Below, piece after piece: positions 2,609 through 27,567 of a DNA stretch of 64,000 nt. The stretch's first letter is position 1. Every line of letters starts with the position of its first letter. Under the pieces are notes generated by a model. That model had not been told where the DNA came from. It did no database searches and was given only the letters and a program-made list of their open reading frames with translations. The stretch is from NCBI RefSeq assembly GCF_000403845.2, contig NZ_KE159568.1, positions 186,001-250,000 of the forward strand. Reading direction: 5' to 3'. Source of the stretch: Eubacterium sp. 14-2. GTDB lineage: Bacteria > Bacillota > Clostridia > Lachnospirales > Lachnospiraceae. A program made the translations under genes and the position numbers.

Positions 2609-2628
2609 TGTACGTTATCTCCATAAAT

Positions 2629-2787
2629 ATTACATCTATAAGATTTTAGAGTAAAAAATTTGTATTGCCGGATATATCATATTTTCCATTCCTTCTTCCA
2701 TTTTTATTACATGTGTAAGATTTCAGAATAAAAAAATATATCCAGAACCTTCTGCACTTGTATAAATATTACATCAGTAAGATTTAG
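2629..2787. promoter_or_regulatory. three direct repeats ATTACATnnnTAAGATTT upstream of the lipoprotein operon
   Basis: Copies begin at 2629, 2706 and 2768 (offsets 77 and 62 bases). Each reads ATTACAT, three variable bases, then TAAGATTT, often followed by an A-rich run. The first and third also share the preceding TATAA. The central copy TTACATGTGTAA is nearly palindromic, as expected for a dimeric regulator. The regulator is unknown. Confidence 0.5.
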
Positions 2788-3153
2788 AAGTCAAGTTGTT
2801 TTTATAGAAAAAGGTTCCTGCCGGAAGGTATCATACATTTTCGCAGTGCGAAGCCTGCTTCAGTAAAAGTGATACCTTTTAGCAACAACCTGTTATTCAG
2901 CAGAGTTTCAAAACACCCCACTGCTACGATATTAAGTGGTTCATTCATAAAGCTATAAAACACACATTCATTTTCGTTTCTTACTATCCCACAAGCCCCA
3001 GACAATCAGGGTTTCTTTGAAAGCAGACAAACGATTTCCACTTACACTATTCTCCCCAGCATAGCTGGGGGATAGTATTTTCAATTATTCCCTTTAAAGC
3101 AATTTGTGAAATTTCACCAAAGAAAACGTCTAAGAACGACTTCAAACGAAAAC

Positions 3154-3216
3154 AACGCCCCTGAATTTTGTTGCGATAAAGTGAAACGGCAGAACGCAAC
3201 AAAATTCAGGAGCGTT
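3154..3216. repeat. long stem-loop: 22-bp inverted repeat with one mismatch
   Basis: The left arm 3154-3175 (AACGCCCCTGAATTTTGTTG...) pairs with the right arm 3195-3216, with one mismatch and a 19-base loop. There is no U-tract on either side, so it is not a plain terminator. I believe similar hairpins are dispersed in Lachnospiraceae genomes, but that is from memory. Confidence 0.7.
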
Positions 3217-3253
3217 ATCCCGGTCATACATACCCATATAACATTGAGGTAAG

Positions 3254-4219
3254 TCACTGCCGAATACGAACTGTGCACTTCCTATGGCTTTCATCACCAT
3301 TCCAGGAGTTTTCCAGGAAATGCCTGTTCCATTCCTCATAGTTTTTGAATTCCTTTTTACAACCTGAACAAATTACCGCTTCTACAGGATGTGAATAGTC
3401 ATCATCCCAGTCCTTAAAGCCGCATATATCGCAATAGTAATACCAAATCCAACTTTTATAAACGGTTTTACCGTCAGAAAAACCATTATGTACCGCCCAA
3501 TCCGGCGCCGGAAGACCATTCAATGTTGCTTCTAATAATATATCATCATATTCAAAGGCGTGCTGTTCCCATTCTTCCACAGTAGCAAAAACTTTTCCAC
3601 AGTAGCAAACTATACCAAATATATTTTCAGGTTGAGGGTCATCATACGCTGCCCAATGATGTTTGTGAGTATCCTTCACAACAACCTTACATTTCAGCGT
3701 CCTGTTATTTATTTTTGCAGTAATCACAGCAGAGCCTTTCTTCCTGGCAGTCACTTTTCCAGTTTTAGAAACAGTGGCAACTTTTGTATTAGAAGTCGTC
3801 CATTTAACTTTTTTTCTCGTGCCTGTGACTTTTAACTGAATGGTAGGATTTCCCTTTTGATTCGTCATAGTCAAAGTAACCTTAGTCTTATTCAACTTTG
3901 GCGTCATTTCTGCCTTAACTGTCACCTTGCATTTATAAGTCTTTTTATTCACTTTTGCAGTAATTACAGCAGAGCCTTCCTTCTTTCCAGTCACTTTACC
4001 ATTCTTCGATACAGTAGCGACTTGCTCATTACTGCTTTTCCACGTCACTTTTTTAGATGTGCCTTTGACCTTTAACTGGTATGATTCCTTTACGCTTACC
4101 GTGATTTTCGTCTTGTTCAGCTTTGACGTTGCCGCCTGTGCTGTCATAGGCATAACCAGTGTCAGAGTCATAGCAAGGATAAAGATAGTTGTGATTGACT
4201 TTTTGATGATGTTCTTCAT
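3254..4219 (-). CDS. secreted protein with two BIG2 Ig-like domains and a C-terminal Cys/His region
   Basis: The start is taken at 4219, not the upstream in-frame ATG at 4288, because GGGGGA precedes it and a signal peptide follows directly (Lys-rich start, hydrophobic core, MTAQAA cleavage region). Residues about 30-100 and 110-185 are two bacterial Ig-like BIG2 domains, each with the signature VATVSKNGKVTGKKEGSAVI or a close variant. The C-terminus has four Cys pairs in zinc-finger-like spacing (CYCGK, CDIC, CSGC) with nearby His. BIG2 domains are common in clostridial surface proteins. A role at the cell surface is likely; the ligand is unknown. Confidence 0.85.
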   Translation of the reverse strand: MKNIIKKSITTIFILAMTLTLVMPMTAQAATSKLNKTKITVSVKESYQLKVKGTSKKVTWKSSNEQVATVSKNGKVTGKKEGSAVITAKVNKKTYKCKVTVKAEMTPKLNKTKVTLTMTNQKGNPTIQLKVTGTRKKVKWTTSNTKVATVSKTGKVTARKKGSAVITAKINNRTLKCKVVVKDTHKHHWAAYDDPQPENIFGIVCYCGKVFATVEEWEQHAFEYDDILLEATLNGLPAPDWAVHNGFSDGKTVYKSWIWYYYCDICGFKDWDDDYSHPVEAVICSGCKKEFKNYEEWNRHFLENSWNGDESHRKCTVRIRQ

Positions 4220-4520
4220 AACGATTCCCCCTTCATATAATATATGCATATATTTTTTCTTTGCGAAATATCGGTCATTTTTCGACAAATTCCATCTAAT
4301 TAGAATTATACTCCCTGTTAGCAGTTTTGTCCATTTTTAATTCCGTTCCTTTCCATTTTTACTCCTGCACCCGATTTTTTTAACAGATAACTTAGAGCAT
4401 TAGACACCGAACAGGAAAAACAGATACAGAATCGGGGAACAAAAAGCAGGGGGTTCAAAGGGGCGTGGCAACACTCCCCTTGCAAAATTATCCATACTCT
4501 TTAGATATGGATGTATTTTG

Positions 4521-4991
4521 CTACACCGGACGGAAAGAGATACCTTTTCGGGAAAGCAAAAGCCTACCGCCACAGACAGCGCAACCTGGCAAAAGCCAGA
4601 AAATAACCGGAGAAAAAAATATAGAAAGAAAATTCAAAAAAACTTGACAAGGGATTGCATTATGAAAATTCCAATTTCTACAAATTCGTTCGTTAAGTGC
4701 AATATGACTATGCGTAATTAAACTTTTTTCAAATTCTTCATGTGTATCTAATTCAACTTTTTCCCAAAGTACCAATACAATTTTTTGCAGTCGTTCTATT
4801 CCTACAGATACATGATATAAAAAAGAAAATAACATTGAATCCTGATTTATCACCTCTATCTGATTGAGCATATGTACCCCATCATAAATAAATTCGCCTG
4901 CAATATCTAGCTCTGTAACCATATTAAAATTTTTATAGTTCCACAATTTATCAGGAAATAAAGAATTCAAAATGACTCTCCCTCCATTCAT
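4521..4991 (-). pseudogene. truncated gene of unknown, possibly HEPN-like, family
   Basis: About the first 105 residues read as a normal helical protein (ELDIAGEFIYDGVHMLNQ, then LVLWEKVELDTHEEFEKSL). After about 4680 the frame becomes Cys/Pro-rich and non-coding in character, so the gene seems cut off, perhaps by an insertion that brought in the sequence at 4380-4650. The start is uncertain: ATG at 4991, or TTG at 4970 that lies behind GGAGGGAG. The helical pattern recalls HEPN-type proteins, but this is a guess. Confidence 0.4.
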
Positions 4992-5019
4992 CCATAAAAC
5001 ACTAATAATCTATATCTAT

Positions 5020-5321
5020 TTATGTCATCCCAAAATGCTCCAAAGCATCCCTTATCGCTTCCACTTTCTCCGCTTTCGGATGTTTCCTCGGCTGTTTCAA
5101 TTCCTATACCGCATTAGGGGCATCATACATCGGCAATCCTAACTCCCTTTTTACCTCTGCGATATATGCGGTATGTACTTTGAAGCCGTATTTTGCTTCT
5201 ATGTACTCCTTAATCATCTTGTAGGTAACTCACTCTTTTAGATTGTACGCCTCAGCTCACATGACAATATTACCAGGTGACACTTTGCCCTCACCTTCAC
5301 CAGATTCCACTTTTACATTGA
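5020..5321 (-). pseudogene. decayed C-terminal module of the serine recombinase
   Basis: Read one base out of frame from the recombinase end, the sequence continues as GKTDSVINVKVESGEGEGKV, then VTYKMIKEYIEAKYGFKVHT, then PRKHPKAEKVEAIRDALEHF. That is a helical module I recall at the C-terminus of many Lachnospiraceae recombinases and RNA methyltransferases. Three in-frame stops interrupt it (near 5258, 5230 and 5104). The recombinase therefore lost this tail by frameshift, and the tail then decayed. Confidence 0.65.
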
Positions 5322-7010
5322 TTACGCTGTCGGTTTTTCCCGGGAAAGCAGACACACAACTTCCACGTGTTTATTATCTTCCAAACTCAAATTCATATCT
5401 TCCTCAATAATCGGAAGTCTGAATTTAATAGACTTCAGCCACTGTCCATTGGGCTTTCTGTCCTCATAAATCTGTATCTCAGAAATTAACGCCTCCATAA
5501 ACTGCCGCCGTTCTATCTCATTCATCACAGCATACAGTTTTTCAAAATAAATCAACACTTTATAGATATTATCTCCCGTTAGCTTCTCAGCTTCAATTGC
5601 CTGCTTCTTTGCCCTCGTTTCAATAAGTTGTGTTTCCACATTTTCTATCTTATCATACATTCGATAAAGGCGGTCATCAAGGTCTGCTTTTCGTTTGATA
5701 TAATGTCTGTCATCCGGATCAAGGGAATCAATTTCCTCCGCCAGTTTTAGCTTGACTGCATAATATTGCCGCAACTGCTTTTCAAAATCTGCAAGTTCTC
5801 CGTCTATTGTGACAGTATCCACTTTGCAGTTGATCTTTTCCTGCATCATTGCCGCAAACTTAGGATTGCCAACTAATTTTACAATGACTTCCGCCACCGC
5901 ATCGTCCAATAGTTCCTCCCGTATCTGCTTTTTATAATCACACTTATGTCCACGCGTCATGTTTCGATGCTTACAGCCATAGTAATAAAAATCCTTGTAT
6001 TTCGTTCCGTCCTTTTTGTGCTTGATACTCTTATTTCCATACATGCCTGCTCCGCAGACCGGACATTTTACAATACCGGAAAGAAGGTGTGTTTTGGTGT
6101 CCTTCCCTCTATTTACATGTTCATATTTCTTTGCATGTGAAATAAGTTTTACCTGTGCCGCCTGCCAAACATCTTCCTCAATAATCGCATCATGCTGTCC
6201 GTCCACCAGAATATAATTATCCTGCTCTACAAGATGATACTCATTCCGTGTTCCGTGAACCTTTTCTGTCTTTCTGCGTCCATAAGCGATTTTCCCGCAA
6301 TATACCGGATTTTTCAGAATAAGGCGAACCAAGTGCGCATCAAAAAGAGGATTTTTCCCATTCTGCCGCTGTATTTTATGGATGCCGTGGTTTTCAAGAT
6401 ATTTTGCCACACCGTTAGCGCCAATGTCTGTTTTCACATACTGTTCAAAGATTATGCTGATAGCTTTTGCTTCTTCTTCGTTAATCTGAAGTTTGCCCTC
6501 TACCAGTTGATAACCATATGGCGCAAATCCACCGTTCCATTTTCCCTCACGGGCTTTCTGAATACGCCCTTCCATTGTCTGCACACGAATATTCTCCCGT
6601 TCAATCTCTGCAACTGCTGACAGTACGGAAATCATCAGTTTCCCTGCATCCTTGGAAGAATCAATACCATCCTCCACGCAAATCAGATTTACCCCGAAAT
6701 CCTGCATAACCTGTAATGTAGAAAGTACGTCCGCCGCATTTCTGCCAAATCTGGATAACTTAAAAACAAGAACAAAGGAAATGCCGTCTTTCCCTGACTC
6801 GATATCCTCCATCATGCGGTTAAATTCTATCCGCCCCTCAATGGACTTTCCAGATTTTCCTGCATCCTCATATGTACCGACAATTTCATAATCATTATAG
6901 TCGGCATACGCTTTCATTCTGGCTTTCTGCGCATCCAAGGAGTAACCGTCTGTCTGCATGGCTGTAGATACTCTTGTATATGTGTAAACCTTTATTTTCT
7001 CGCTGTGCAT
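5322..7010 (-). CDS. large serine recombinase (resolvase/integrase family)
   Basis: Start chosen at 7010 (GGAGAGATGAT before ATG); the frame itself extends to 7091. The N-terminal resolvase domain shows YTRVSTAMQTDGYSLDAQ with the catalytic Ser, then FKLSRFGRNAADVL and the helix E region IERENIR. The middle is the Recombinase domain (GFAPYGYQLVEGKL), followed by a zinc ribbon (CPVCGAGMYGN, then C and CDY) and a coiled coil around residues 400-480. Such enzymes integrate and excise mobile elements. The C-terminal module is frameshifted away (see 5020-5321). It lies 77 bases after rhuM. No attachment sites were identified, so the element it serves is unknown. Confidence 0.9.
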   Translation of the reverse strand: MHSEKIKVYTYTRVSTAMQTDGYSLDAQKARMKAYADYNDYEIVGTYEDAGKSGKSIEGRIEFNRMMEDIESGKDGISFVLVFKLSRFGRNAADVLSTLQVMQDFGVNLICVEDGIDSSKDAGKLMISVLSAVAEIERENIRVQTMEGRIQKAREGKWNGGFAPYGYQLVEGKLQINEEEAKAISIIFEQYVKTDIGANGVAKYLENHGIHKIQRQNGKNPLFDAHLVRLILKNPVYCGKIAYGRRKTEKVHGTRNEYHLVEQDNYILVDGQHDAIIEEDVWQAAQVKLISHAKKYEHVNRGKDTKTHLLSGIVKCPVCGAGMYGNKSIKHKKDGTKYKDFYYYGCKHRNMTRGHKCDYKKQIREELLDDAVAEVIVKLVGNPKFAAMMQEKINCKVDTVTIDGELADFEKQLRQYYAVKLKLAEEIDSLDPDDRHYIKRKADLDDRLYRMYDKIENVETQLIETRAKKQAIEAEKLTGDNIYKVLIYFEKLYAVMNEIERRQFMEALISEIQIYEDRKPNGQWLKSIKFRLPIIEEDMNLSLEDNKHVEVVCLLSREKPTA

Positions 7011-7087
7011 ATCATCTCTCCATTTGTGCAACGCCCGTTGCACTTTTACATTTTGATAACCATATTCTTTTCGTAATCTGTAAATTC

Positions 7088-8098
7088 TCATTCTTTATCT
7101 GACTTTTTACCCAATATTTTTATTGAGTTTAAATAGTCTTGTTCCACATCACTTAAAGTACGCTCTTTATATTTCTTATATTCCCCAGTTGCTTTTTCCA
7201 CCGCCTGCTTATGCGTCACACTCCCGTTTCCTGACAATAACTGTTCGCCGCTCATTGTTAAAATCCGGTCTAAGTGCTTCGCCCAATCTTTCATGGTCAT
7301 AGCCTGTTCCCGCTCCGCCTGACGTTCTGCAAAATCCAAATATCCCGACACAAGCTGCCCCATTGCACGAAGTTCTTTTTCATTCAGATAGTTTTTGGCA
7401 ATGACAACTTCTCGCAAAGTCGGCTGATTTCCTGCAAATGTGGTAAGCCCCATAAATTCCTTTTCCGCATCCGCTCTTGTATAAATAACTTCCGCCGCCG
7501 TCTGCCCATGAATGGCATAATGAATTTTGTTCTGAACCTTCTGAAAAAACTGAATGGATATTTCCGCTTTTGGATCATAGTCAATGCTTGTGGCATAAAT
7601 TTCCAAAATCTGTCTGTAAAATACCTTTTCAGATGCACGAATGTCTCTGATCCGTTCAAGCAGTTCCTTAAAATATCCACCGCCGCCTAAGTTTTTCAGA
7701 CGTTCATCATCCAGTGCAAAACCTTTACGCATATACTCTTTCAAGATTCCGGTTGCCCATATTCTGAACTGTGTGCCGCGTTTTGATTTCACACGGTAGC
7801 CGACAGAAATGATTACATCGAGATTATAATAACAAATGCTGCGTTCTACCTGCCTGTTTCCTTCATTTTGAACTGTTGCAAAATATGCAACAGTTGCTTC
7901 CTGCACAAGTTCTTCTTCTGAATAAATATTTTTAATATGCCTTGAAATTGTTGATTTATCTCTCTGAAATAGTTCTGCCATTTGGTCAATAGACAGCCAC
8001 ACAGTATCCCCATCAAAAGTTGTTTCAATCTTAGACAAACCATCCTCTGTTGTATAGATTATAATATTTGATTTTCCCATTTCATCTCTGTAATCCAT
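7088..8098 (-). CDS. rhuM: RhuM family protein
   Basis: Start at 8098 is preferred (GAGGTGACT before ATG) over an in-frame GTG at 8125. The N-terminal half has the RhuM pattern: a helix-turn-helix-like VWLSIDQMAELFQRDKSTIS, then NLDVIISVGYRVKSKRGTQF and the RIWATGILKEYMRKGF segment. The C-terminal half is helical. RhuM was named from Salmonella pathogenicity island 3, but its molecular role is not settled; such genes are common on mobile islands and next to restriction or recombinase genes, as here. Confidence 0.9.
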   Translation of the reverse strand: MDYRDEMGKSNIIIYTTEDGLSKIETTFDGDTVWLSIDQMAELFQRDKSTISRHIKNIYSEEELVQEATVAYFATVQNEGNRQVERSICYYNLDVIISVGYRVKSKRGTQFRIWATGILKEYMRKGFALDDERLKNLGGGGYFKELLERIRDIRASEKVFYRQILEIYATSIDYDPKAEISIQFFQKVQNKIHYAIHGQTAAEVIYTRADAEKEFMGLTTFAGNQPTLREVVIAKNYLNEKELRAMGQLVSGYLDFAERQAEREQAMTMKDWAKHLDRILTMSGEQLLSGNGSVTHKQAVEKATGEYKKYKERTLSDVEQDYLNSIKILGKKSDKE

Positions 8099-8203
8099 AG
8101 TCACCTCATCTCCTTGTACTTTCACTCAAATATAAGCAAGTATGTTTTTCCAAATTTGGTTTGGACACACTTATCATGTTTATTATACATTATACACTTG
8201 CTA

Positions 8204-8362
8204 TTAGCAAGAAACATCTTGCCAGTCTTTTGTTGCCTTATTTTTTTCTTCCACATGATTATCTACTGTTATATCAGGTAAATTTTCTATATCCAAATCT
8301 GACGCATATTTTTCAATCAAATTTGCAAGCATATCTGCCAATCCGCTCCATTCATCAGTCAT
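8204..8362 (-). CDS. small acidic protein, 52 aa
   Basis: An ATG at 8362 sits behind a strong site (GGGAGGGATATTT). The product starts MTDEWSGLADMLANLIEKYA, is acidic, and ends in two stop codons in a row (TAA TAG). It lies 105 bases upstream of rhuM on the same strand and may belong to the same element. The ribosome site and the amphipathic helix support it; no family recognised. Confidence 0.5.
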   Translation of the reverse strand: MTDEWSGLADMLANLIEKYASDLDIENLPDITVDNHVEEKNKATKDWQDVSC

Positions 8363-9004
8363 AAATATCCCTCCCATATAAACGCAAAAAAAGACAGCTA
8401 TAAACTGTTACGTTCATAACTGCCCTTACGCTGTTTTCATTCTAAAAATTACAAATTTCCCGTCAATTTTTCCTTTACTTTAATCCATAAACCTACATAC
8501 AAGTGACAGGTCATTACGCTGCCCACATCGGAATCACACCGTCATTATATGACTGAATTTAAATCAAAAATTCAGAAGTATCATTATCACAGATATGCTT
8601 CATCGCCCCGCACAACTGCTGTGCATTTTGTCAGGTTTTTATCGCTCAATGCCTTCGCTTCAGAGGTTTGTTTTCCATTTCTTCACATTTGCCTGAAAAT
8701 GGATTAAAGCGAGCATATCATGGCGCACCTACATTGTGGCTACACATATCCTCACGTCCTGTACGCATATTGCAATATTCAGTTTTCAAACAGGCTTTTA
8801 TTTCATATGCCTTAAAGATTATTCTACATAGTAAATATGCAAAATTCCTTCCTATTTACAAAAACTTTTTCAAAATTTTTCTGTCAAAATGGGCGGCAAC
8901 ACTGGTATCGTTTTTGGACAGACTAACCATACAACTTAAAATCCATTTGTTCATCTCACCGAAACAGCAAGCACTCCCTGTGTCATGACACAGAGCATAA
9001 TAGC
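8363..9004. other. gene-free stretch between a small gene and IS66
   Basis: About 640 AT-rich bases. Open frames here lack ribosome sites and look random. I see no array, tRNA or strong terminator. It ends at the left terminal repeat of the IS66 element. Confidence 0.5.
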
Positions 9005-9079
9005 GTAAGCGCCAAATAATAATGCGGTCAGATATAAAATTACCCCAGCCCTTTGCGAGTTGGAGTAATTCACTATAAT

Positions 9080-10696
9080 TCACATGCGATTTTTGATAGA
9101 TTGGAGTTTTTCACTCCAGGGTGCAAGCTCTGCGAGCTGATTATCGGCCATCTCTTTCGTTGGCCGATGGTCCAACAGAAATTTCAGATATCCGTAAACA
9201 TTCAGGTCATGCGCCTTTGCCATCTCAACCATTGTATAAACTACAGCACTGGCATTGGCTCCTTCTACAGAATCACTGAACAGCCAGTTTTTGCGGCCGA
9301 CTGCAAACGGACGCATCGCGTTCTCGCTGAGATTGTTTGTGAAGCTGCAGCGGCCATCCTCCAGATAAGTCTGTGCTGTTTCCCGCCGGTTAAGGACATA
9401 ATTCACTGCTTTATCCATGCGGGTATTCCGGACTGGCTTTTGCTGCTCAAGCCATGACCAGAAAGCCTCCAGAACAGGTTTTTCCTTCTCGAGACGCAGC
9501 TGCTTACGCTTTTCATAATCACCGGGATATTTTTTGTGAATGGAATCCTCTATGGCAAACAGGCGGTTACAGTACTGGACTCCCTGTACTGCCGGCTGGC
9601 TGTAATCATACGGTTTCCCTTTGGGAACGGCGTCGATAAAGTACCGGCGGATATGTGCCCGGCAGGAACACCGCTTGATATCCGGCAGGCTGTTGTAGCC
9701 CTGATAACCATCCGTTTCCAGATACCCATGATAACCTTCCAGGAACTCTTTTGCATGGCTGCCACTCCTGGTTGGAGAATAGCCATATAAAATAATGGCA
9801 GGAAGACCGTCTTCGCCGCTGCGGAACAACCACATAAAAGATTGTGTCTGTGCCCGGCGTTCTTCTTCCTTCAGTACCTGGACCCGGGTCTCATCTGCCA
9901 TTGCGAAGCTGCGCTTCAGCAGTTCCCGGTGGAAGTAATCATACATTGGCTGGAAGTAATTCCTGGAGCAATAGATGATCCAGTTGGCAAGTGTCGTCCT
10001 GCTGATCCGGGCACCATACTGTTTCCAGTCTTTCTCCTGACGGTACAGGGGAAGTCCATTGGCGTACTTCTGATACATCGTCCATGCAACGGTGGATGCG
10101 GTCGCCGGTCCTTTTCCTACCAGAGCCTGTGGAACTTGGGACTTTACAATCACAGGTTTTTCCGTGTCTCCCAGTCCTTCCTTACAGGACGGGCATCCAT
10201 AACTCTGACTGTAGTATTCGATCACTTTGCATGTGGCCGGGATGAATTCCAGCTCACGGCGGACATACGCTTCGCCGATCAGCACCATCTGCGTACCGCA
10301 GACCGGGCAGACCTGATCTTCTTCCGGAAGAGGGATAACTGCTTTTTCAACCTTCAGCCCTTTGAAAAGCTCCTCATGGGTTGCTTTCTTCTTGCGGGCA
10401 TGCTCCCGGATCACGGTATCTTCTTCCAACAGGGATAGATCCTGTTCCACTTCGGCTTCATCAAAAAGGTTCTGCTGTCCTGGAATGTCATCGGTTCTTC
10501 TTTCACTGGAGGAACCGAAAAGCTTTTTGGTAAGATAGTCCACCTGTTCCTGAAGGGCTTTTTCGTGGCTGGTTTTTTCGTCAATAACAAGACGGAGAGA
10601 TCTGATCAGTTCCGTTTGCTCAGAGATCATTGTTTTCAGCCCGGTTATGGTGTCCTTCAGCTCTCGCAGCTGGATGTCTTTTGCACTGGAAGCCAT
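9080..10696 (-). CDS. tnpC: IS66 transposase TnpC
   Basis: Full-length IS66 DDE transposase, 538 aa, with AAGGAGAG before the ATG. It has an N-terminal coiled coil (residues 5-60) with the LTKKLFGSSSERR box, a zinc-finger region (CPVCGTQM, then CPSC), and the catalytic core with ADETRVQV (first Asp), LETDGYQGYN (second Asp) and NNLSENAMRPFAVGRKNWLF (Glu). All three acidic residues are present, so it may be active. Confidence 0.95.
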   Translation of the reverse strand: MASSAKDIQLRELKDTITGLKTMISEQTELIRSLRLVIDEKTSHEKALQEQVDYLTKKLFGSSSERRTDDIPGQQNLFDEAEVEQDLSLLEEDTVIREHARKKKATHEELFKGLKVEKAVIPLPEEDQVCPVCGTQMVLIGEAYVRRELEFIPATCKVIEYYSQSYGCPSCKEGLGDTEKPVIVKSQVPQALVGKGPATASTVAWTMYQKYANGLPLYRQEKDWKQYGARISRTTLANWIIYCSRNYFQPMYDYFHRELLKRSFAMADETRVQVLKEEERRAQTQSFMWLFRSGEDGLPAIILYGYSPTRSGSHAKEFLEGYHGYLETDGYQGYNSLPDIKRCSCRAHIRRYFIDAVPKGKPYDYSQPAVQGVQYCNRLFAIEDSIHKKYPGDYEKRKQLRLEKEKPVLEAFWSWLEQQKPVRNTRMDKAVNYVLNRRETAQTYLEDGRCSFTNNLSENAMRPFAVGRKNWLFSDSVEGANASAVVYTMVEMAKAHDLNVYGYLKFLLDHRPTKEMADNQLAELAPWSEKLQSIKNRM

Positions 10697-19196: not shown

Positions 19197-19767
19197 GTAT
19201 CAATGCCATTAATCGGGAATTCTTCCTTTCTACTATCTTTATCGTCCAATTTTCCAACAAGGAGACATAATGTCAATGCCCTTTTTCGGGCTTACTTCCT
19301 ACTCAATAATTTTAAAGAATTAAAGGGAAGGCAATTGGCGTATCAATGCCCTTAGGCGGGCTATCATCTTTTTTACTTTGGTCAGGGGTAGATTTTGAAA
19401 CTCGTAAACCTGTGTCAATGCCCTCAGGCGGGCTATTCTCATTTCAACAGACAACTTGGACATTTAAATGTCGGAATAAGGATGTATGTCAATGCCCTCC
19501 TTCGGGCTATCTTCTTTTCTACAAAATACACCAAATTTAAAGAGACCAATATCTATTATGTGTCAATGCCCTCCTTCGGGCTTCTGTTATTTCTATATCC
19601 AACGACGTTTCTGTTCGAACTAATGGGACAGAGTGTCAATGCCCTCCTTCGGGCTTCTTCCTTTTCTACATTAATTGATATTTGTATCAATCGTTATGAG
19701 GGAAAAAAAGTTGTAGATAACTACATCAACGTATCAATACCCTTTTCCGGGTCTCTTCCATTTTTAC
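19197..19767 (-). CRISPR. CRISPR array 1: 8 degenerate repeats, 7 spacers
   Basis: Repeats are 37 bases: 19197-19233, 19270-19302 (4 bases short), 19340-19376, 19412-19448, 19486-19522, 19560-19596, 19633-19669 and 19731-19767. The conserved core on the minus strand is AGCCCGAAGGAGGGCATTGA, followed by CAC or TAC. That gives an ATTGACAC-like 5' handle, so transcription should run on the minus strand from a leader at the right. Spacers are 35-37 bases except the leader-proximal one (19670-19730, 61 bases). Most repeats differ from each other. The 19597-19632 spacer recurs in array 2. Confidence 0.92.
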
Positions 19768-19880
19768 TGTTACCCTCGAACCCTTTATAATAAAAACCTT
19801 CAAAAAAATCTTTGTAAACAGATGCCTTTTTTCAGCATTCGAATGGTTCTGTCCAACTTATCTGATTCTGATGTTCCTCT
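19768..19880 (-). promoter_or_regulatory. leader of CRISPR array 1
   Basis: AT-rich sequence on the handle side of the last repeat. Its first 60 bases resemble the flank of array 2 at 27192-27260 (shared blocks CTCGAA, CCTTTA, and T-rich runs at matching offsets), so it is a conserved leader. TTTACA at 19813-19818 (minus strand) could be a -35 box. Confidence 0.55.
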
Positions 19881-20216: not shown

Positions 20217-21182
20217 TCACTGAATCACATACCTTCCAAACCCAAAGCTAGTATTTTTCCCAATATGTATCAGTTCCCCCACAATCAATATCTGCCAGAC
20301 ATCCTCCGTCAGTTCCGGCAGCAATGCCTGACCTTTTATCCCTTTCAGAATCATCTTTTCATTCTTTCTTGCAGAATAACGGCATACACGAACCGGATGA
20401 TGCTCCTGCTGTAAAAACTCTGGGACTATGATGTCCCCATAATTATATTTTTCATATATATCACTCTCTATCCCTTCAAAACAGTCCAGCATATAAATCC
20501 TGCGGACAACAGCATTCACAATTGCATTCAGCTGGAACTCCTGCAGGAATTCATTCCGGTATTTCAATGTCAGCGGACTCTCGAATACTATCCTGCTCCC
20601 CCTTCCCGGCATGCCAGACCACATATTGCGGAATAGAATATAATCATACAGGACATGCACGATGCATTTTCTCATATCTAGGATATTTTTTTCCAGAACA
20701 GACTGCCCTTCTGTATTTTGTATATCGGCAATCTGAAATCGAGCATGGCTCTTTCCAATCCCATTTTGCATACCCATTTCCCGGAATGCCTGCACGAACT
20801 GGTTCAAGTACACAATCGTCTTTCCAAATAATATTAGGTAAAAACTTAATCTCTCACCTTCCCTAAAATGTCCCCTGCCGTCCTCACACTCTAAGACATA
20901 ACCAATGCTCCCGCCCATCGTAACAAATTCCGGCGTTTTCTCAAACTTGGAATACATAGTTCTCTGCACAATGCATTCCGATTCAAAATCACAGGATTCA
21001 CACTGCCGGTCACGGATACAGTTTATGCGCAGGAGCATCTCCCCCATCCCGCCCCTAATGGCAGAGACTTTATCTTCCGGCAGCTGGCTGTCCTGTAAAA
21101 ATGCAACAGTAAATCGTAGCTTTATAAAACGCACCTGCAATGCGTCATACAATCCCTTTTCCATTCTACATACTATCTCCAT
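20217..21182 (-). CDS. cas6: CRISPR pre-crRNA endoribonuclease Cas6
   Basis: 321 aa, of the Cas6 type that accompanies type III loci. The C-terminal domain shows GHFREGERLSFYLILFGKTI, then a FREMGMQNGIG stretch and the closing GKNTSFGFGRYVI glycine-rich loop. An N-terminal Cys cluster (CIRDRQCESCDFESEC) may bind a metal. Cas6 cuts the array transcript within each repeat, leaving an 8-base handle. It is last in the operon, 148 bases after csm4, and nearest to array 1. Start 21182; an ATG at 21164 with GGAG upstream is the alternative. Confidence 0.9.
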   Translation of the reverse strand: MEIVCRMEKGLYDALQVRFIKLRFTVAFLQDSQLPEDKVSAIRGGMGEMLLRINCIRDRQCESCDFESECIVQRTMYSKFEKTPEFVTMGGSIGYVLECEDGRGHFREGERLSFYLILFGKTIVYLNQFVQAFREMGMQNGIGKSHARFQIADIQNTEGQSVLEKNILDMRKCIVHVLYDYILFRNMWSGMPGRGSRIVFESPLTLKYRNEFLQEFQLNAIVNAVVRRIYMLDCFEGIESDIYEKYNYGDIIVPEFLQQEHHPVRVCRYSARKNEKMILKGIKGQALLPELTEDVWQILIVGELIHIGKNTSFGFGRYVIQ

Positions 21183-21330
21183 CTATACTAAAATGTCATT
21201 TAAAACATATATTTCCATTAACCAGATAAACCAGAATCCATATTCCCATTCCTTGCAAGAAAATATTTTTAAACGCCTAACCCAGTTTAACCAAAAGCAA
21301 AACTTTGCCGCATTTCGAAAAAAATCACTG

Positions 21331-22290
21331 TTAAGCATCTAAACAGCAGGGAACGGCAATGGTATATGCGCCAATAATGATGTCGTCAGACACAGAGCCA
21401 TTCTTTAGCGCAATATGTTCCACACAGGAGCCGTAAAACTCTTTTACAGGGTGTGCTTGGAAGACACTGCCTGCCTGTAGAAATATAATTGGCTTTTTAA
21501 AGGGGGAATCTTCCGGCTTCTCCGTATAACTCACTTTCGGATATTTCACAAATGCTTTATAGCTCCCCTCCGTCGGGTCCCCCCGCTGCGGCACAAAATT
21601 AGAAAGCGCCACAAACCCATTTGGGTCCGACGGGCACTGGAATCCCTGGAAGGGTTCCACTTCACCTTCCAGATGGAATCCCCCTTTTCCAACAGAGCGC
21701 TGCGCTCCAATCCCATAGCTGAACATTTTTGCCAGGACATCTTTCAGCATTACCGGAGCAAATGCCGAATACAGATAAATATCAAACGAGCCCTCTGTAA
21801 AAAACTGTTCCACCTCAAACAAACTGCTTGCGCCATCTATATTTTCCACAGTATCCGTTTCCCGGCTTACCATATTCCTCCATTCCAGCTGCGGTTCTTC
21901 CCTTGGTTCTGGGCTACACCCATTGTCCGGTTCTGCCGCCTCGTGTCTGCCGTTTATGATATCATTAAACCCATCCAATGAAACCGTTGCCGCCTGCTTC
22001 CGGCTCTTATCTGCAATATATTTCTTATACTTTTCCTGCTTTGTTTCCAGCAATGCAGTTCCCTTCATGGATTCATCCAACCCGACAGGCATAGGCAACC
22101 GGCCAGATGGAAATGCATTAGAAAATATAATGTCCGGCATACCGCTTTTATAATTACTTATCAGCTTTTGCAGCGCGCTTTCTCCATATCCATATAAATA
22201 GCTCCAGCAAAATGCCCCAAATAAAGTGTCACTCTGCAAGGGCGAACAATAAGAAGAAATTGGCTTAATTGTAATCTTAAATAAATTCAT
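21331..22290 (-). CDS. csm4: type III-A CRISPR RAMP protein Csm4 (Cas5 group)
   Basis: 319 aa. The N-terminus has the Csm4 signature SDTLFGAFCWSYLYGYGE, the middle RLPMPVGLDE, and the C-terminal half the glycine-rich GIGAQRSVGKGGFHLEGEVE. Csm4 caps the Csm complex, binds the crRNA handle and contacts Cas10. A proline-rich insertion (residues about 115-140) is variable in the family. It starts 2 bases after csm3. The gene that normally follows, csm5, is absent: 148 bases without a gene separate it from cas6. Confidence 0.92.
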   Translation of the reverse strand: MNLFKITIKPISSYCSPLQSDTLFGAFCWSYLYGYGESALQKLISNYKSGMPDIIFSNAFPSGRLPMPVGLDESMKGTALLETKQEKYKKYIADKSRKQAATVSLDGFNDIINGRHEAAEPDNGCSPEPREEPQLEWRNMVSRETDTVENIDGASSLFEVEQFFTEGSFDIYLYSAFAPVMLKDVLAKMFSYGIGAQRSVGKGGFHLEGEVEPFQGFQCPSDPNGFVALSNFVPQRGDPTEGSYKAFVKYPKVSYTEKPEDSPFKKPIIFLQAGSVFQAHPVKEFYGSCVEHIALKNGSVSDDIIIGAYTIAVPCCLDA

Positions 22291-22292
22291 CT

Positions 22293-23009
22293 CTACGCTT
22301 CCCCTGAAACTGGCTGCCCATTTTCTGCATCTTCATAGCCCACAATATCATAGTCAAATCTGACTTGACCGGAGCCCCTTGAACCGCTCCCGCCAAGATA
22401 GGAAGATTCCACTGCTTCCAGCCCTTCCTTCACAAACGCAAGCATCTTTCCTTCTTCATCGCCTTCGAAAATTTTTAAAATAATTTCAAAATCAAAGGAC
22501 ATCCCAGCCGGTACACGTTCTATTGTCCGTGGAGAATCTGCGGTTCCAATGTCACGCTTTATGATATTTTCCACTTTTCTTTCCACATAACTTCTGTTTG
22601 CAAGAGGAAGTGATTTAATCATTTCTTTTGATTCTTCTGAAAGCATGGCATCCCTGACGATAATCCTCGTTGGGGCAGACTTTGCATTCTGCTTTTTATG
22701 CGCTCCGAAAACACTGCAAACCAGGCAGTCCTTGTTCCCACAGCCGCATGGTTCCCTTTCTTCACTTTCCAAAACCATTTTTCCCATTTCCGATTTATTC
22801 CATTTTTTGCTCCCATATCTCTTTTCTAATTCCGAACGCATTTTCCCTTTCAGGCTGGAACCTGGTATGTAAGGTTCTTTGGTAATCGGGTTTTTAATAA
22901 CTTCCTGGCTGACCCCGCCTATTTCCAAAGCATTCGAAGAACCGCCTATGCACAGTCCTGTAACGCAATAAATTTTACCTGCAATTGTAATGCTCCGTTT
23001 TAATTTCAT
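22293..23009 (-). CDS. csm3: type III-A backbone protein Csm3 (Cas7 group) with the catalytic Asp replaced
   Basis: 238 aa. Clear Csm3: TGLCIGGSSNALEIGGVSQE, then PYIPGSSLKGKMRSELE, and GGSGSRGSGQVRF at the C-terminus. Csm3 forms the backbone on the crRNA and, in known systems, cuts target RNA with an Asp in the motif IGxxD (Asp32 in S. epidermidis, Asp33 in S. thermophilus). Here the aligned residue is Ser34 (IGGVS), and the His after TGL is Cys20. So target RNA cleavage is probably lost. A CGCGNKDCLVC motif may bind zinc. AAGGAGACG precedes the ATG. Confidence 0.93.
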   Translation of the reverse strand: MKLKRSITIAGKIYCVTGLCIGGSSNALEIGGVSQEVIKNPITKEPYIPGSSLKGKMRSELEKRYGSKKWNKSEMGKMVLESEEREPCGCGNKDCLVCSVFGAHKKQNAKSAPTRIIVRDAMLSEESKEMIKSLPLANRSYVERKVENIIKRDIGTADSPRTIERVPAGMSFDFEIILKIFEGDEEGKMLAFVKEGLEAVESSYLGGSGSRGSGQVRFDYDIVGYEDAENGQPVSGEA

Positions 23010-23023
23010 CTTTTATCGTCTCC

Positions 23024-23440
23024 TTACTTCTGGTTTTCTCTTGGCAAATATGCAATCAATGCCTGAAAATGTTTTATAAACGCATCCAAATCTTCCATTT
23101 TTTGAACTTTTGAAACATTTTCATTAATAAAATCTTTAAATACGGGCGTAACCATGCTTCTATTTAATGCAGATTCGACTATCGGCTGCATCATATCCAA
23201 TTCCGCTTCTGACACAGCGAAAGGCATCCCTCGATGCTCCAGGTTATCCTGTATCCTTCTGGCATGCTCGTAAAATTTCCATATCTGTGACAGCTTATTT
23301 TTATTACGGTCTTTTAAGCCCTTTGCTATTTCCTTTGGGTATTTCACTATAAATTCAGGCTTCATGCATTCTTTCCCATCCACAATTCTGTAATAGCCAT
23401 CTTTTAAATCCTCCAAATACTCCTTTGGCAGTTTATCCAT
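23024..23440 (-). CDS. csm2: type III-A small subunit Csm2
   Basis: 138 aa, helical, basic. The LKDRNKNKLSQIWKFYEHAR region and the closing FIKHFQALIAYLPRENQK match the helical Csm2 (Cas11) family that lines the target strand. It overlaps cas10 by 8 bases and is followed by csm3 after 14, as expected for a Csm operon. Assigned from position and pattern; Csm2 is weakly conserved. Confidence 0.85.
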   Translation of the reverse strand: MDKLPKEYLEDLKDGYYRIVDGKECMKPEFIVKYPKEIAKGLKDRNKNKLSQIWKFYEHARRIQDNLEHRGMPFAVSEAELDMMQPIVESALNRSMVTPVFKDFINENVSKVQKMEDLDAFIKHFQALIAYLPRENQK

Positions 23441-25685
23441 GCTTCCTGTCCTCCTTTGTCAAATTTAACGCATATTTCACACTAACCTCCGCAAAATAAA
23501 CCTCCTTTTTTAGCTTTCGGTAATCCGAAGCTTCCCGATACAAATCATTGCAATACTCCCTAAACCACTTATTCCGTCCTATCAAATCAAAGTTCCTCTG
23601 CATGTCATAATCAAACATTGGCAGGAACATAAGGCTGTCCACATCCATACTTTCCTGGTATTTCTGATACATCCGGCTGTAATCCCCAATCCTCCTCACT
23701 GCTGCGGCTCCCACATCAGCATATGCCCTCGCCAATTTTCTTCCCGTTTCAACCTGGACTTCAAAATCCTCCCACGACATGAATTCATCCAGGAAATAAA
23801 CCCCATTCCTCCCTCCTTTGTCCGGATATACCACAGGATTTATTCTTTTCTTGACCTGGCTTAATTTTTGCTCACAATATCCAGCCAGCGTGGAAATATG
23901 CCCGTTTCCGTTTGTTGTACAGATTGCTGCTGACAACGTAGCGCACGGATTGAACCCCGTATATTCATGGAACTTTTTATTGATTTCAATAGCAAGCTCC
24001 GGCATCTCATTCCAAGGCCCTAATAGGAACAAGTCATCCCCGCCTGCAAAAACGCAATATACATTTTTGTATTTTGTCGCGATTATTTCATGGAGATACC
24101 CATTAAAAAACAACTCCAGCATCCGTGATAATGTATTGACTCTTGCAATTGTCCCCATATTCCTGTCTTCGCTTTGCAGGCCTTCTGTAAACAAAAACCC
24201 CAGTGTGTCTACATCTGCCTTTAAAATCCCTATTTTCTTGCAGCCTTTGGAACCATCGGCTATCTCGTCAAATGTTTTTACTTCAAAAAAACTTCTTTGC
24301 CCCTTAGTTCCCGATTCTTTCACTGGCACGTTATTTACGGCATGGTATATGGTTACAGGCATGCTGTACATCCCGCTTATGTCAGAATCATTCAGCCTCA
24401 TAACCAGATAAGGCTCCGTCGTATCCTCATCCAAGTTCAAGTAATACCCTTCAATCAATTCATACTGCCCTTTCCCTCTGCTAAAGGAAAACTGCTTGAT
24501 TTTCGGCAGCTTCCCACCCATTTCCGTATCATTCTCACAATTAGGGCACATATCCTCCCCTTCGTCCACCAAGGCACTCCTGCATGAGGTACACATGGAT
24601 TTATGGAACAATTCATCATAAACAAGGAAGCGTTCCGGATTCCACTGTTCTTTTTCTGTCAATACAGTTTTCAATAATTGGTTCTTCTTTCTGTCAATTG
24701 CGACAGAAAGGTTGGTAATTGTGCTACTGTAATTATAAATCCCCGCATCTCCTATTTTTTCCCAAACAAGTTCAAAGGACAAATTCCCTCTGAATTTTTT
24801 ATACAAAAATTCTGTTACATCTTCCTCAATCGCCTGTAATATCCGTCCCGTGACATCCGTATTTGGAAGAAGGATATAGAACTTTCCTCCTGTCAGCATG
24901 AGGATATTTGTTAATGGCAATCCGAATTTATGTACGATGCAATGCGCAAGGGCACTGATTGTTGCATTGACGTAAAAAGAGCGGGAACGGAGCCTTTTGG
25001 CAACTCCGCCAGACCCAACTTTTGAAACCAGGAATATATATTTCTGGATGCCGGAAAAATGCCCTGCTGCCATTACATAGGGCCTGTCCCTGTTTTCTGA
25101 CTTTAATAACGCTGCTGTGATTGCCGTTGCTGTTTTTATATAATCATAAAGCGAAACATCTTCCTGCTCATTCTGTGTTGCTGGAATGCCCCATAGATAT
25201 TTCTTCATCAAAGTGTCAAGCACGGTAAGGAAATCCTCAAAGCTGTCTGGGAAACTTTGCTGCAGCAAATCCAGCTCATGGAAGAACTGCTCCCTTACTT
25301 TCTTATAATCACAGTCTTTTATCCGCCCAGCTGAAAGAGGGATTATATTTTCCATAGATAATTCTGCCGGGGCATAATACATTTTTTTCTTTGGGTAATT
25401 GCCGTCAAGGCTTAAATTTGAAAAAACACTGCATAATGGATTCATGGTTTTCCTTTCCCTATGCGGGTCTTCACCACCTAATGCCAGCTTTTTTGCCCTT
25501 TGAATGATTTCCTGGCATTCCCCCTGTACACCATTTTCCAGCAATCCCTTTAAAGCTGGCAGGTCTGCATAGCTCCTGAATAATTTCTCATACCTCTGCA
25601 AAAACTCAAACCCCGGTACTGCGAAAAATACGGAAAGTTCCGTAATCACTGTGCCTAAAATAGTTTCTCTCCATAATTCCATCAT
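23433..25685 (-). CDS. cas10: type III-A Cas10/Csm1: cyclase motif intact, no HD nuclease motif
   Basis: 750 aa from the ATG at 25685 (AGGAG 8 bases ahead). First Palm-like domain with HFSGIQKYIF (residues about 209-218); zinc ribbon CTSC ... CPNC (365-383); second Palm with KADVDTLG (about 490) and AGGDD (about 547-551), the cyclic-oligoadenylate synthase motif. The N-terminus, which in active Csm1 has an HD nuclease with LHDIGK, shows no such motif, and LYDYIKTATA stands where many have a His. So DNA cleavage seems lost and signalling kept. It starts 5 bases after the membrane protein gene stops. Confidence 0.93.
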   Translation of the reverse strand: MMELWRETILGTVITELSVFFAVPGFEFLQRYEKLFRSYADLPALKGLLENGVQGECQEIIQRAKKLALGGEDPHRERKTMNPLCSVFSNLSLDGNYPKKKMYYAPAELSMENIIPLSAGRIKDCDYKKVREQFFHELDLLQQSFPDSFEDFLTVLDTLMKKYLWGIPATQNEQEDVSLYDYIKTATAITAALLKSENRDRPYVMAAGHFSGIQKYIFLVSKVGSGGVAKRLRSRSFYVNATISALAHCIVHKFGLPLTNILMLTGGKFYILLPNTDVTGRILQAIEEDVTEFLYKKFRGNLSFELVWEKIGDAGIYNYSSTITNLSVAIDRKKNQLLKTVLTEKEQWNPERFLVYDELFHKSMCTSCRSALVDEGEDMCPNCENDTEMGGKLPKIKQFSFSRGKGQYELIEGYYLNLDEDTTEPYLVMRLNDSDISGMYSMPVTIYHAVNNVPVKESGTKGQRSFFEVKTFDEIADGSKGCKKIGILKADVDTLGFLFTEGLQSEDRNMGTIARVNTLSRMLELFFNGYLHEIIATKYKNVYCVFAGGDDLFLLGPWNEMPELAIEINKKFHEYTGFNPCATLSAAICTTNGNGHISTLAGYCEQKLSQVKKRINPVVYPDKGGRNGVYFLDEFMSWEDFEVQVETGRKLARAYADVGAAAVRRIGDYSRMYQKYQESMDVDSLMFLPMFDYDMQRNFDLIGRNKWFREYCNDLYREASDYRKLKKEVYFAEVSVKYALNLTKEDRKHG

Positions 25686-25689
25686 CTGC

Positions 25690-26607
25690 CTACTCCTGCG
25701 TAAAATATAAAACACTGTTAATACGTTCTAATAACGTGGCCCCAAAATTTACAGAACTCACATAGAAAGGAAAATTACAGTTCTCCAAATTAATCCGCTT
25801 GCCTCCTACACAATAAAAAATTCCATAGATTCCTTTTTCATTGCATTGTCTTGCAATTTTCTCATAATTTTTTTCTTCATTCGCTCCCGTTTCCGTATTG
25901 TTAATCCCTGCTGCTTGTCTACCAACCCGCGTATTCTTTTCATACTCTGATTGGCCTACCTGATAAATTATCACATTATATTTTTTTATTAAACGGTTTA
26001 TTTTCTTTTCCTCTACAGATTCCTTTATTACTTCTTCCTCTACACAATATTCTTGTTTTTCCAGAAAGTCATATATTTTTTCGAAATCTTCATCCTTCTT
26101 CTTTTGCTTTAAAAATAATATTTTTTTCTTCTTCGCCTGTTCTTCTTTTTCAATACATCTTATCAGATATTCCTCCCGGTCCACACCTCCAATGAATCTT
26201 GTTATTTCATCTTTTACCAGTTTAACGTACTGCTCCTGAAACATATCTGAAATGTTCTTTCTGCTTTCAAATCCCAGAAAAGCCATAAGCGCCAAGAACG
26301 CTGCTCCAACCACTCCTAAGAGCCAAATCAGATATTCCTGCTGCTCCTGGATAAATTCCCTGTATTTTGCAGTTTCATTTTCTATAAACTCAACCGCTTT
26401 CATATATTCTGTCTGGTCGGTGTTCTTTGAAGAAGGCTGTATCTGGATTTCCATATCTGCAATCTTTGCTTCTGATTCCTGTATGCGCCTATTCATGGAT
26501 TTCATTTTAAAATATCCAAATAATACCGTGACACAAACAATAAAAAGGATAAGAACTGCAATAATTATTACAGCGTTATGATTATATTTATGAATTTTTT
26601 TCTTCAT
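25690..26607 (-). CDS. two-TM coiled-coil protein with Rossmann-like C-terminus; candidate CRISPR effector
   Basis: 305 aa, AGAGGGGACGAT before the ATG. TM1 is residues 12-33, a coiled coil follows (36-90), TM2 is 92-113, and the rest is cytosolic. The C-terminal half alternates strands and helices: KILFLKQ, DEDFEKIYDFLEKQ, KKINRLIKKYNVIIYQVG, then EKIARQCNEKGIYGIFYCVG and FYVSSVNFGATLLERINSVL. This looks Rossmann-like, as CARF and receiver domains do, but no known motif fixes it. It is the first large gene of the cas operon, 4 bases before cas10. With no csm6 in view, it is the candidate second-messenger effector. Comparable in layout to Csx23 and Cam1. Confidence 0.75.
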   Translation of the reverse strand: MKKKIHKYNHNAVIIIAVLILFIVCVTVLFGYFKMKSMNRRIQESEAKIADMEIQIQPSSKNTDQTEYMKAVEFIENETAKYREFIQEQQEYLIWLLGVVGAAFLALMAFLGFESRKNISDMFQEQYVKLVKDEITRFIGGVDREEYLIRCIEKEEQAKKKKILFLKQKKKDEDFEKIYDFLEKQEYCVEEEVIKESVEEKKINRLIKKYNVIIYQVGQSEYEKNTRVGRQAAGINNTETGANEEKNYEKIARQCNEKGIYGIFYCVGGKRINLENCNFPFYVSSVNFGATLLERINSVLYFTQE

Positions 26608-26750
26608 ATCGTCCCCTCTTTTATTCTTCTTTTTGCTATTTTCAAAATTCTTTTGTAAATTTCCACATAGGCTGAAACATTATTCTCGCGCAACAGATGC
26701 AGTAATACCATGGTCATTTCCCTTTGATAAGATGTCACATCTAAGAACAT
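26604..26750 (-). CDS. possible 48-aa protein coupled to the membrane effector
   Basis: An ATG at 26750 opens a frame that ends in TGA overlapping the next start (ATGA at 26604-26607). The product starts MFLDVTSYQREMTMVLLHLL and is helical and very basic at its end (ILKIAKRRIKEG). The ribosome site (AATAGAG) is weak. The coupling argues for it; it could also be the 3' end of a lost longer gene. Confidence 0.4.
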   Translation of the reverse strand: MFLDVTSYQREMTMVLLHLLRENNVSAYVEIYKRILKIAKRRIKEGTI

Positions 26751-26809: not shown

Positions 26810-27191
26810 GTGCCAATGCCCTTCCTCGAACTTCTTTCGTTTCTACATCATAAACGTAGCCTTATTGACAATTATATACACATTTCAATGCCCTTCTTCG
26901 GGCTCTTCCTCTTTACTATCTTGTGCCTGGTTTTGGCTAAATGAACCAAAAATGATGTATTAATGCCCCTTCGGGCTTTCCTCTTTTCTGCTACCAGCAT
27001 AAAATCTTACGCCAACCCCAGAAAAGCATACTTTCTTTATTTTTACATCCAACGACGTTTCTGTTCGAACTAATGGAATAAGAGTGTCAATGCCTATCTT
27101 CGAACCTCCTTATTTCTAAGATTTTGAGCCAACAAGTTGCAGTGAAGTATATGGATGTCAATACCCTTCCTCGGATTCCCTTCATTTTTAT
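26810..27191 (-). CRISPR. CRISPR array 2: 6-7 strongly degenerate repeats
   Basis: Repeats of the same family as array 1: 26810-26846, 26882-26916, 26957-26990, a very worn one at about 27010-27046, 27084-27120 and 27155-27191. A worn repeat may also precede 26810. Spacers are 34-40 bases where clear. The spacer at 27047-27083 begins ATCCAACGACGTTTCTGTTC and matches array 1 spacer 19597-19632 over its first 30 bases. Handle orientation again points to minus-strand transcription from the right flank. It is close to the start of the cas operon. Confidence 0.85.
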
Positions 27192-27567
27192 GGTTTCCTT
27201 CTCGAATCCTTTAACATCAAGACCTCTTGAGAACTTTTTTGCAAGCAATTTACAGAATATTCTGAAAACAATATATTTCAACACTTTTTCTGTCTGTTCA
27301 TAGTTTAGACATATTTTGTTCTTCTATGTTCGATTAACCTGAACTTTATTCCAATAAATATCTTCCAGTCATCCCACCTATTTCTGCATTTCCCTTTCTC
27401 TGAAATGTCCCTTGCAGTCGAGGTACACACTATCTACCATTTACAACAAATAATCAGGCTATCTTGGTTTCATTATACAAAAAAACCATCCTATATTCAA
27501 GGATGATTCCTTACTGGTTTATAGTATGGCTACAGTCCAGCCGAAAAGCTGAACTGCAACGATTATC
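27192..27567. other. leader of array 2 and decayed sequence
   Basis: 27192-27260 is the leader-like flank similar to that of array 1. At 27395-27445 the minus strand reads VYLDCKGHFRERE, which recalls LECEDGRGHFREGERL in Cas6, so this may be a trace of a second cas6. Hairpins lie at 27486-27508 (CCATCCT/AGGATG) and 27533-27560 (CAGTTCAGC/GGCTGGACTG) and could serve as terminators for rlmD. Confidence 0.4.

Follow-up and report, generated by a model that had tools for sequence, protein, structure and literature searches.

The window analysed here, a stretch of 64,000 nt covering positions 186001-250000 of contig NZ_KE159568.1 in the 3.99-Mb genome of Eubacterium sp. 14-2 (Lachnospiraceae), carries on its minus strand a type III CRISPR operon (20217-26607) that, in our judgement, probably encodes an effector complex derived from type III-A that lacks Csm5, has turned into a sensor and signals to a membrane effector. 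In minus-strand order the locus consists of CRISPR array B, a membrane-protein gene (memb), cas10, csm2, csm3, csm4, cas6 and array A. A sequence-only reading of this DNA had described a system seemingly able to signal but not to cut, pointing to a Cas10 with the GGDD motif and no LHDIGK-type HD motif, a Csm3 with Ser34 in place of the RNA-cleaving Asp, and an operon without csm5, csm6, cas1 or cas2. The residues and the gene content were borne out by profile searches and alignments; what they imply for the duration of the signal is less settled and is weighed below.

None of the six open reading frames (ORFs) of the operon (memb, cas10, csm2, csm3, csm4 and cas6) contains an internal stop, and by our reading most are preceded by ribosome-binding-like sequences. 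From memb through cas10, csm2 and csm3 to csm4 the genes are separated by only 4, -8, 14 and 2 nt, and 148 nt lie between csm4 and cas6. The 750-aa product of cas10/csm1 (23433-25685) matches the III-A Cas10 family of NCBIfam (TIGR02578) with 471 bits against a cut-off of 170, and the remaining subunits also exceed their NCBIfam cut-offs: Csm2 (Cas11; 23024-23440; TIGR01870, 31.7 against 30.6), Csm3 (Cas7; 22293-23009; TIGR02582, 206 against 90) and Csm4 (Cas5; 21331-22290; TIGR01903, 95 against 55). Cas6 (20217-21182) is recognized by PADLOC and lies above the Pfam cut-off (PF10040, 42 against 25) and below that of NCBIfam (TIGR01877, 16 against 59); with this exception the identities of the Cas genes agree across Pfam, NCBIfam and PADLOC. 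The intact reading frames and the tight spacing from memb to csm4 favor the sensor reading, as does the retention of both the TIGR02578 match and the cyclase motif of Cas10.

That motif, GGDD, lies at residue 548 (24033-24044) of a protein whose start is most likely the ATG at 25685, which matches the start of the Cas10 from a related locus (L029), rather than an alternative GTG at 25715. In alignment with HD-bearing Cas10 proteins, the HD pair, the following His and the HH positions are lost or deleted in the window protein, and no intact HD residues were found that might have contradicted the sequence-only reading. The N-terminus of Cas10 is shortened and all of these residues are absent not only in the window but also in its four nearest relatives. 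An intact cyclase motif without HD is the combination expected of a system that only signals, and the absence of HD is in itself common: the motif that we searched for is present in 29 of 47 Cas10 proteins and in variant form in one more (L086), leaving 17 without it, including L082 and L047, whose starts are missing. A published census finds HD in 65% of III-A loci; for type III loci as a whole the figure is 39% (PMC11229360). The terminal branches of the Cas10 tree measure 0.39 for the window, 0.39 for L029 and 0.51 for another relative, L030; the window branch is thus no longer than those of its relatives and gives no sign of faster decay. A second, weak Cas10 match has a C-terminus that reads as GGDEF-like and is not a CRISPR gene, and no relatives of Cas10 were found in viral contigs.

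The departure that sets the window apart is in Csm3, where the codon AGC at 22908-22910 places Ser34 at the position of the catalytic Asp. Across all 89 Csm3 proteins aligned, this column holds 85 Asp, 2 Glu, 1 Lys and 1 Ser, the last being that of the window. A first set of 43 proteins including the window contributed 41 Asp, 1 Ser and 1 Lys, and a second set of 46, from phylum and order samples and with seven loci repeating others omitted (L114, L146, L155, L158, L159, L165 and L166), contributed 44 Asp and 2 Glu; the Csm3 search of 388 genomes matched 45, of which loci were obtained for 30 and the Csm3 of 15 weaker matches was left out. The serine is not conserved among relatives, since the four nearest all have Asp (GAC or GAT). 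Going from either Asp codon to AGC takes two or more substitutions, which makes one miscalled base an unlikely cause. When 40 full-length Csm3 proteins were compared (three partial ones being dropped), 39 positions showed 90% or higher conservation in the others; the window kept 38 of them, and the one that it lost is Asp34; the other proteins show zero to three departures each, apart from nine in L039, whose end is cut. The change is specific to the catalytic site and private to the window within our sample, and the coincidence of the single departure with the catalytic residue, together with a Cas10 branch that is not lengthened, favors the sensor reading. The catalytic Asp is rarely lost elsewhere too, being replaced by Glu in L122 and L150 and by Lys in L095. 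The last of these (L095:9155-9826, genome G015) belongs to a III-A locus with the HD motif HDVGR, csm5 and an ORF read as Csm6.

Published mutants indicate what the loss of this residue may mean. In LdCsm3 the D34A change left RNA cleavage severely impaired while DNase activity rose (PMC7214462), and in SthCsm3 D33A abolished knock-down (PMC10497410). By analogy with these substitutions, which are to Ala and not to Ser, the window Csm3 should have little or no capacity to cleave RNA. The LdCsm complex makes no cyclic oligoadenylate, and its D34A mutant is hence uninformative on signaling (PMC7214462). We also considered whether a change at Csm3 His20, a residue whose mutation to Ala costs LdCsm3 its DNase (PMC7214462), is tied to the loss of HD. 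The five HD-less loci of the window's clade have Cys or Ser there, yet the residue is also Cys in the HD-bearing relatives L167 and L168 (Csm3 entries L144 and L145) and Arg in L169 (L115), and we rejected the connection.

In contrast to the private serine, the absence of csm5 is shared. Seeded with five canonical loci and extended through three rounds, our Csm5 profile found no csm5 in the locus. It matched 26 of 47 loci (25 in full, one as a fragment), in a survey where, by our reading, the contig or fetched stretch of 11 loci ends before the place of csm5, and it matched neither the five HD-less loci of the clade nor five loci with short Cas10 (L039, L040, L041, L043 and L051). Elsewhere in the genome, where a csm5 working with this locus would have undercut the sequence-only reading, the sole match to the RAMP family (PF03787) is Csm3 itself, in a test that is fair but incomplete because the same model misses the window Csm4. 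Three relatives found through their Csm3 (L167, L168 and L169) lack csm5 and keep HD. In a Cas10 tree that excludes the HD region (the first 110 residues were cut from all but five short rows, and six long or partial rows were dropped), these three and the five HD-less loci form a single eight-member clade with support of 99/97, within which the HD-less loci group at 86/68 and the window, L029 and L030 at 100/100. Because csm5 is missing from all eight loci, three of which have HD, its absence is an old lineage trait. A single loss of HD in the five-member group is likely but not certain, and the simplest order of events is loss of csm5 first, in active-looking systems, then of HD, and then of the Csm3 Asp in the window only. 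Among the HD-bearing members, L169 carries a CARF-HEPN protein as well as 63 copies of the repeat in its array; in L167 the array comprises 14 repeats and cas1 is present. The sequence-only reading had called the combination an unusual III-A variant, a description that holds for Ser34 but not for the lack of csm5 and HD, which relatives share.

Several loci met in this survey deserve mention in their own right. The Cas10 of L167 (L167:6457-8814, genome G888) carries HDIGK but GGNE in place of GGDD in a csm5-less locus, so that it resembles a mirror image of the window in which the cyclase is probably dead and the HD kept. The short Cas10 proteins (about 490-530 aa) have GGDD and no HD and come from Binatota, Rhodothermota, Acidobacteriota and Latescibacterota metagenome-assembled genomes; L040 and L043 have TIGR02710-type CARF proteins after csm4. 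Near the csm5-less III-A locus L168 lies a 2055-aa ORF with methyltransferase- and helicase-like segments (L168:6258-12425, genome G977).

The locus itself yielded no csm6, cas1 or cas2; for cas2 the search was confined to it. A search for Csm6 HEPN domains gave no match in the host genome, a weak test since 14 control genomes likewise gave none. The genome has a single cas1, about 630 kb from the operon and beside a 1133-aa ORF read as Cas9 from its sequence; we read this pair, at about 840 kb of the same contig (L054), as a type II-like CRISPR locus.

The only candidate output that we, like the sequence-only reading, see in the operon is the 305-aa membrane protein (25690-26607). Its hydropathy peaks at residues 12-30 and 93-111, two segments about 60 residues apart with modelled helices between them, and from about residue 155 the C-terminal domain is modelled as alternating strands and helices (alpha/beta). 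Nothing convincing was found for it in Pfam, NCBIfam or PADLOC 2023, and no relatives were found in viral contigs or plasmids. A homologue with 37-40% identity is encoded in L029 (L029:9169-9993), 7 nt upstream of cas10 compared with 4 nt in the window. Other members of the clade have other effectors: L028 and L032 carry Csm6 after csm4, and L030 has two CARF-HEPN proteins, one fused to Csx20, upstream of cas10 and on the same side of it as the membrane-protein gene of L029. Effector genes have been exchanged between relatives in this clade, which, together with precedents for HD-less signaling and for membrane effectors, favors the sensor reading. In L030 a TIR-SAVED gene also lies just downstream of cas6 on the other strand (L030:13003-14322). 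A 195-aa protein of genome G148 (L057:1249-1836) with one transmembrane segment matches the C-terminal domain of the membrane protein (E 2.4e-7); no CRISPR gene was recognized in the 3.3 kb examined, and its neighbors, which by reading are HNH-like and DUF1016-nuclease-like ORFs, give it a defense-like setting. The domain is therefore not confined to CRISPR loci. The other matches beyond the host's own genome and G148 were weak (E 8e-5 to 0.01) and mostly short stretches, and were set aside.

The operon is flanked by two arrays, both on the minus strand. Array A (19197-19767) has eight recognizable 37-nt repeats, strongly diverged, and a 62-nt interval that appears by reading to hold a decayed repeat; array B (26810-27191) has five, with a similar remnant apparent in a 92-nt interval. 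A putative leader of array B (27192-27225) resembles that of array A (19768-19799) with 74% identity over a match that includes the first repeat, so that the arrays have similar leaders, as expected of III-A, although their repeats are strongly diverged. Ten of the 13 repeats end in ATTGAYAY, and a GCCC/GGGC stem is exact in eight. Repeat ends such as ATTGACAC resemble the 5′ tag of a CRISPR RNA. Across 15 repeats (13 from the window and two remnants of the same type in L030), 56 of 60 stem cells are paired (93%), far above slid controls. A search with the repeat pattern found none in the genomes of L029, L030 and L032, a weak result as the pattern fits 7 of the 13 window repeats and misses the L030 remnants. 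Diverged repeats and the lack of cas1 and cas2 in the locus fit arrays that stopped acquiring spacers long ago. A 30-nt spacer core in array A (19597-19626), which contains the palindrome GTTCGAAC, is identical to one in array B (27047-27076), though the adjoining repeats have diverged. Inter-array exchange, repeated acquisition and selection for the guide are candidate causes.

We propose the following mechanism. If the operon is expressed and guides are made from the diverged repeats, Cas6 would free guides from the two old arrays, and the complex of Cas10, Csm2, Csm3 and Csm4 with a guide would bind a matching foreign transcript. Binding would switch on the GGDD cyclase, yielding cyclic oligoadenylate or possibly another Cas10 product, which the membrane protein, provided its segments span the membrane as predicted, would sense through its alpha/beta domain, disturbing the membrane and stopping growth. 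The complex itself would cut no DNA for want of HD, and little or no RNA because of Ser34, so that, once bound to its target, it should remain active for longer than the related complexes do. Whether it would signal longer depends on the system: cyclase activity of the Sulfolobus solfataricus Csm complex stops as the RNA is cleaved and leaves (PMC6053304), whereas the Streptococcus thermophilus complex, followed by its DNase, is active for more than 1 h after cleavage with the RNA ends still bound (PMC11040160). The claim that the system signals but cannot cut stands only in part: the kept cyclase motif, the lost HD and RNase Asp and the membrane protein as sole candidate output are upheld, and continued messenger synthesis is an inference. 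More tentatively, and with some doubt, we entertain a stronger form in which the locus is a natural latched alarm: a csm5-less Csm complex that has lost RNA cleavage through one residue, in which one bound transcript keeps Cas10 producing, coupled to an undescribed membrane-effector family and to arrays without uptake. If true, the window would supply a type III complex that occurs in nature and has no intrinsic nuclease.

Several observations weigh against the sensor reading, and some of them lend themselves to a serious rival, that the locus is decaying: its adaptation genes gone, its arrays eroding, Ser34 an early inactivating change and no useful defense left. We consider this rather unlikely. 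The 13 repeats have a mean identity of 67% (range 49-86%) compared with 94% for the ten repeats of L028, and we do not credit the pairing of their stem to selection, since 29 of 500 shuffles scored at least as high for covariation and 69 had at least as high a paired percentage. No convincing protospacer was found in phages, where array B gave no match and array A two at E 0.2, one on a repeat and the other 80% identical and only partly on a spacer; plasmids gave none for either array, and viral contigs none for exact cores of the shared spacer (at two lengths) and of three other spacers, the remaining spacers being unscanned there. The failure to find cas1 and cas2 in the locus or any array beside the L029 operon, and the presence of only two repeat remnants in L030, point the same way. 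Against decay stand the six intact ORFs, most with ribosome-binding-like sequences by reading, the kept GGDD and unlengthened Cas10 branch, and the fact that the lone departure among 39 conserved Csm3 positions is the catalytic one, as decay would be expected to scatter; that test nevertheless speaks to a specific site and not to unusual conservation of Csm3 overall. The proposed effector has its own weaknesses: a single full-length homologue was found, the model has low confidence (pLDDT 55 for the whole; pLDDT 70 and pTM 0.69 for the C-terminal domain alone), and its Foldseek matches are weak and mixed. The sole match in the PDB below E 0.001 is an isoprenoid synthase domain protein (4cvh; E 7e-4, TMq 0.43). 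Lower in that ranking come cobalamin-binding, receiver (3H5I fusions) and flavodoxin-like folds, and a viral structure library gave a nucleoside deoxyribosyltransferase (E 5e-4) and, lower, a CAP12/Pycsar TIR-domain protein and receiver domains. No ring nuclease was recognized among 15 genes of or near the operon, which would be odd for a long-lived signal.

It is also conceivable, if improbable, that Ser34 still permits RNA cleavage, through other residues or the 2′-OH of the RNA, which would make the system an ordinary III-A derivative without HD that switches off normally. The D27A mutant of Bacteroides fragilis Cmr4 cleaves RNA more slowly without losing the activity (PMC10600005), which also tells against a sensor freed from cleavage, and other Csm3 proteins have Glu or Lys at the position; the severe effects of the corresponding mutations in two Csm complexes, described above, and the Asp kept in 85 of 89 Csm3 proteins argue otherwise. 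Very improbable, to our mind, is a frozen guide set whose complex now serves against one fixed target, such as a host transcript or an element resident in the genome, one guide being kept in both arrays. The identity of the shared core despite its diverged surroundings would suit such a role, but within five genomes the core occurs, at up to three mismatches, only in the two arrays, and outside the arrays the host genome holds nothing below E 0.5 for array A, to which this comparison was confined. We retain the sensor that signals to a membrane effector as the reading that best accommodates the locus.

Scans for promoters and terminators gave nothing above shuffles, and mobile-element genes lie downstream of the operon in the window (1137-10696), encoding a serine recombinase, RhuM, an IS66 transposase and a DUF6070 protein.

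The locus bears on the question of whether target RNA cleavage by type III systems is a defense in itself or a timer that turns Cas10 off, for the latter of which one study argues (PMC6053304). A complex that has lost only its cutting residue, set beside L029 and L030, which keep the Asp, offers a ready comparison. More broadly, activities separate along one csm5-less branch, from HD with GGNE in L167, through GGDD without HD in five loci, to the window, which also lacks the RNase residue, and the membrane protein offers a lead towards another family of type III effectors. HD-less signaling systems and membrane effectors of type III are already known, the latter including CorA, Cam1, Csx23 and Cap1 (PMC12669027, PMC11229360, PMC12642688). 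In the literature that our search covered, which left out supplements and most subscription papers, neither a csm5-less branch of III-A nor the combination of HD loss with a natural III-A Csm3 devoid of its Asp came to light.

Compared with canonical III-A (Csm) systems, the window shares the operon order and the Cas10/Csm1, Csm2, Csm3, Csm4 and Cas6 families and differs in having diverged repeats and no csm5, HD, catalytic Csm3 Asp or, in the locus, cas1 and cas2. The HD-less Cmr systems of B. fragilis and Vibrio metoecus likewise combine a Cas10 that keeps its cyclase with a separate effector, SAM-AMP acting with the membrane protein CorA in the former and NucC in the latter (PMC10600005, PMC11014256, PMC12669027). 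They are, however, III-B, and the Cmr4 of B. fragilis, which has Asp27, is a very fast RNA cutter (PMC10600005), while the V. metoecus complex is described as a slow cutter (PMC11014256). III-A2 is another III-A variant that is missing a usual subunit and predicted to signal, but it has no identifiable Cas11, whereas the window has Csm2 (Cas11) and lacks Csm5 (PMC12669027). In III-G and III-H the Cas7 catalytic Asp is not conserved either, yet they keep HD and have an inactivated cyclase, the reverse of the window (PMC12669027). Among effectors, Cap1, a cA4-gated pore of a III-A locus with TM1, TM2 and a CARF-like domain (PMC12642688, preprint), likewise has two transmembrane segments followed by a soluble domain; as described, however, a sharp turn connects the two segments of Cap1, and the protein bears DUF4579. 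A further comparison is with Cam2, a predicted type III effector with transmembrane helices and a REC-like domain (Hoikkala et al., PMC11229360). Both proteins join an N-terminal transmembrane region to a C-terminal alpha/beta domain, receiver domains are among the weak Foldseek matches of ours, and Cam2 loci share the profile of a cyclase without HD or a known effector. The window protein, whose two segments are some 60 residues apart and whose fold is of low confidence, may be a Cam2 relative in so far as architecture, set beside the published description and not the sequence of Cam2, can suggest it.

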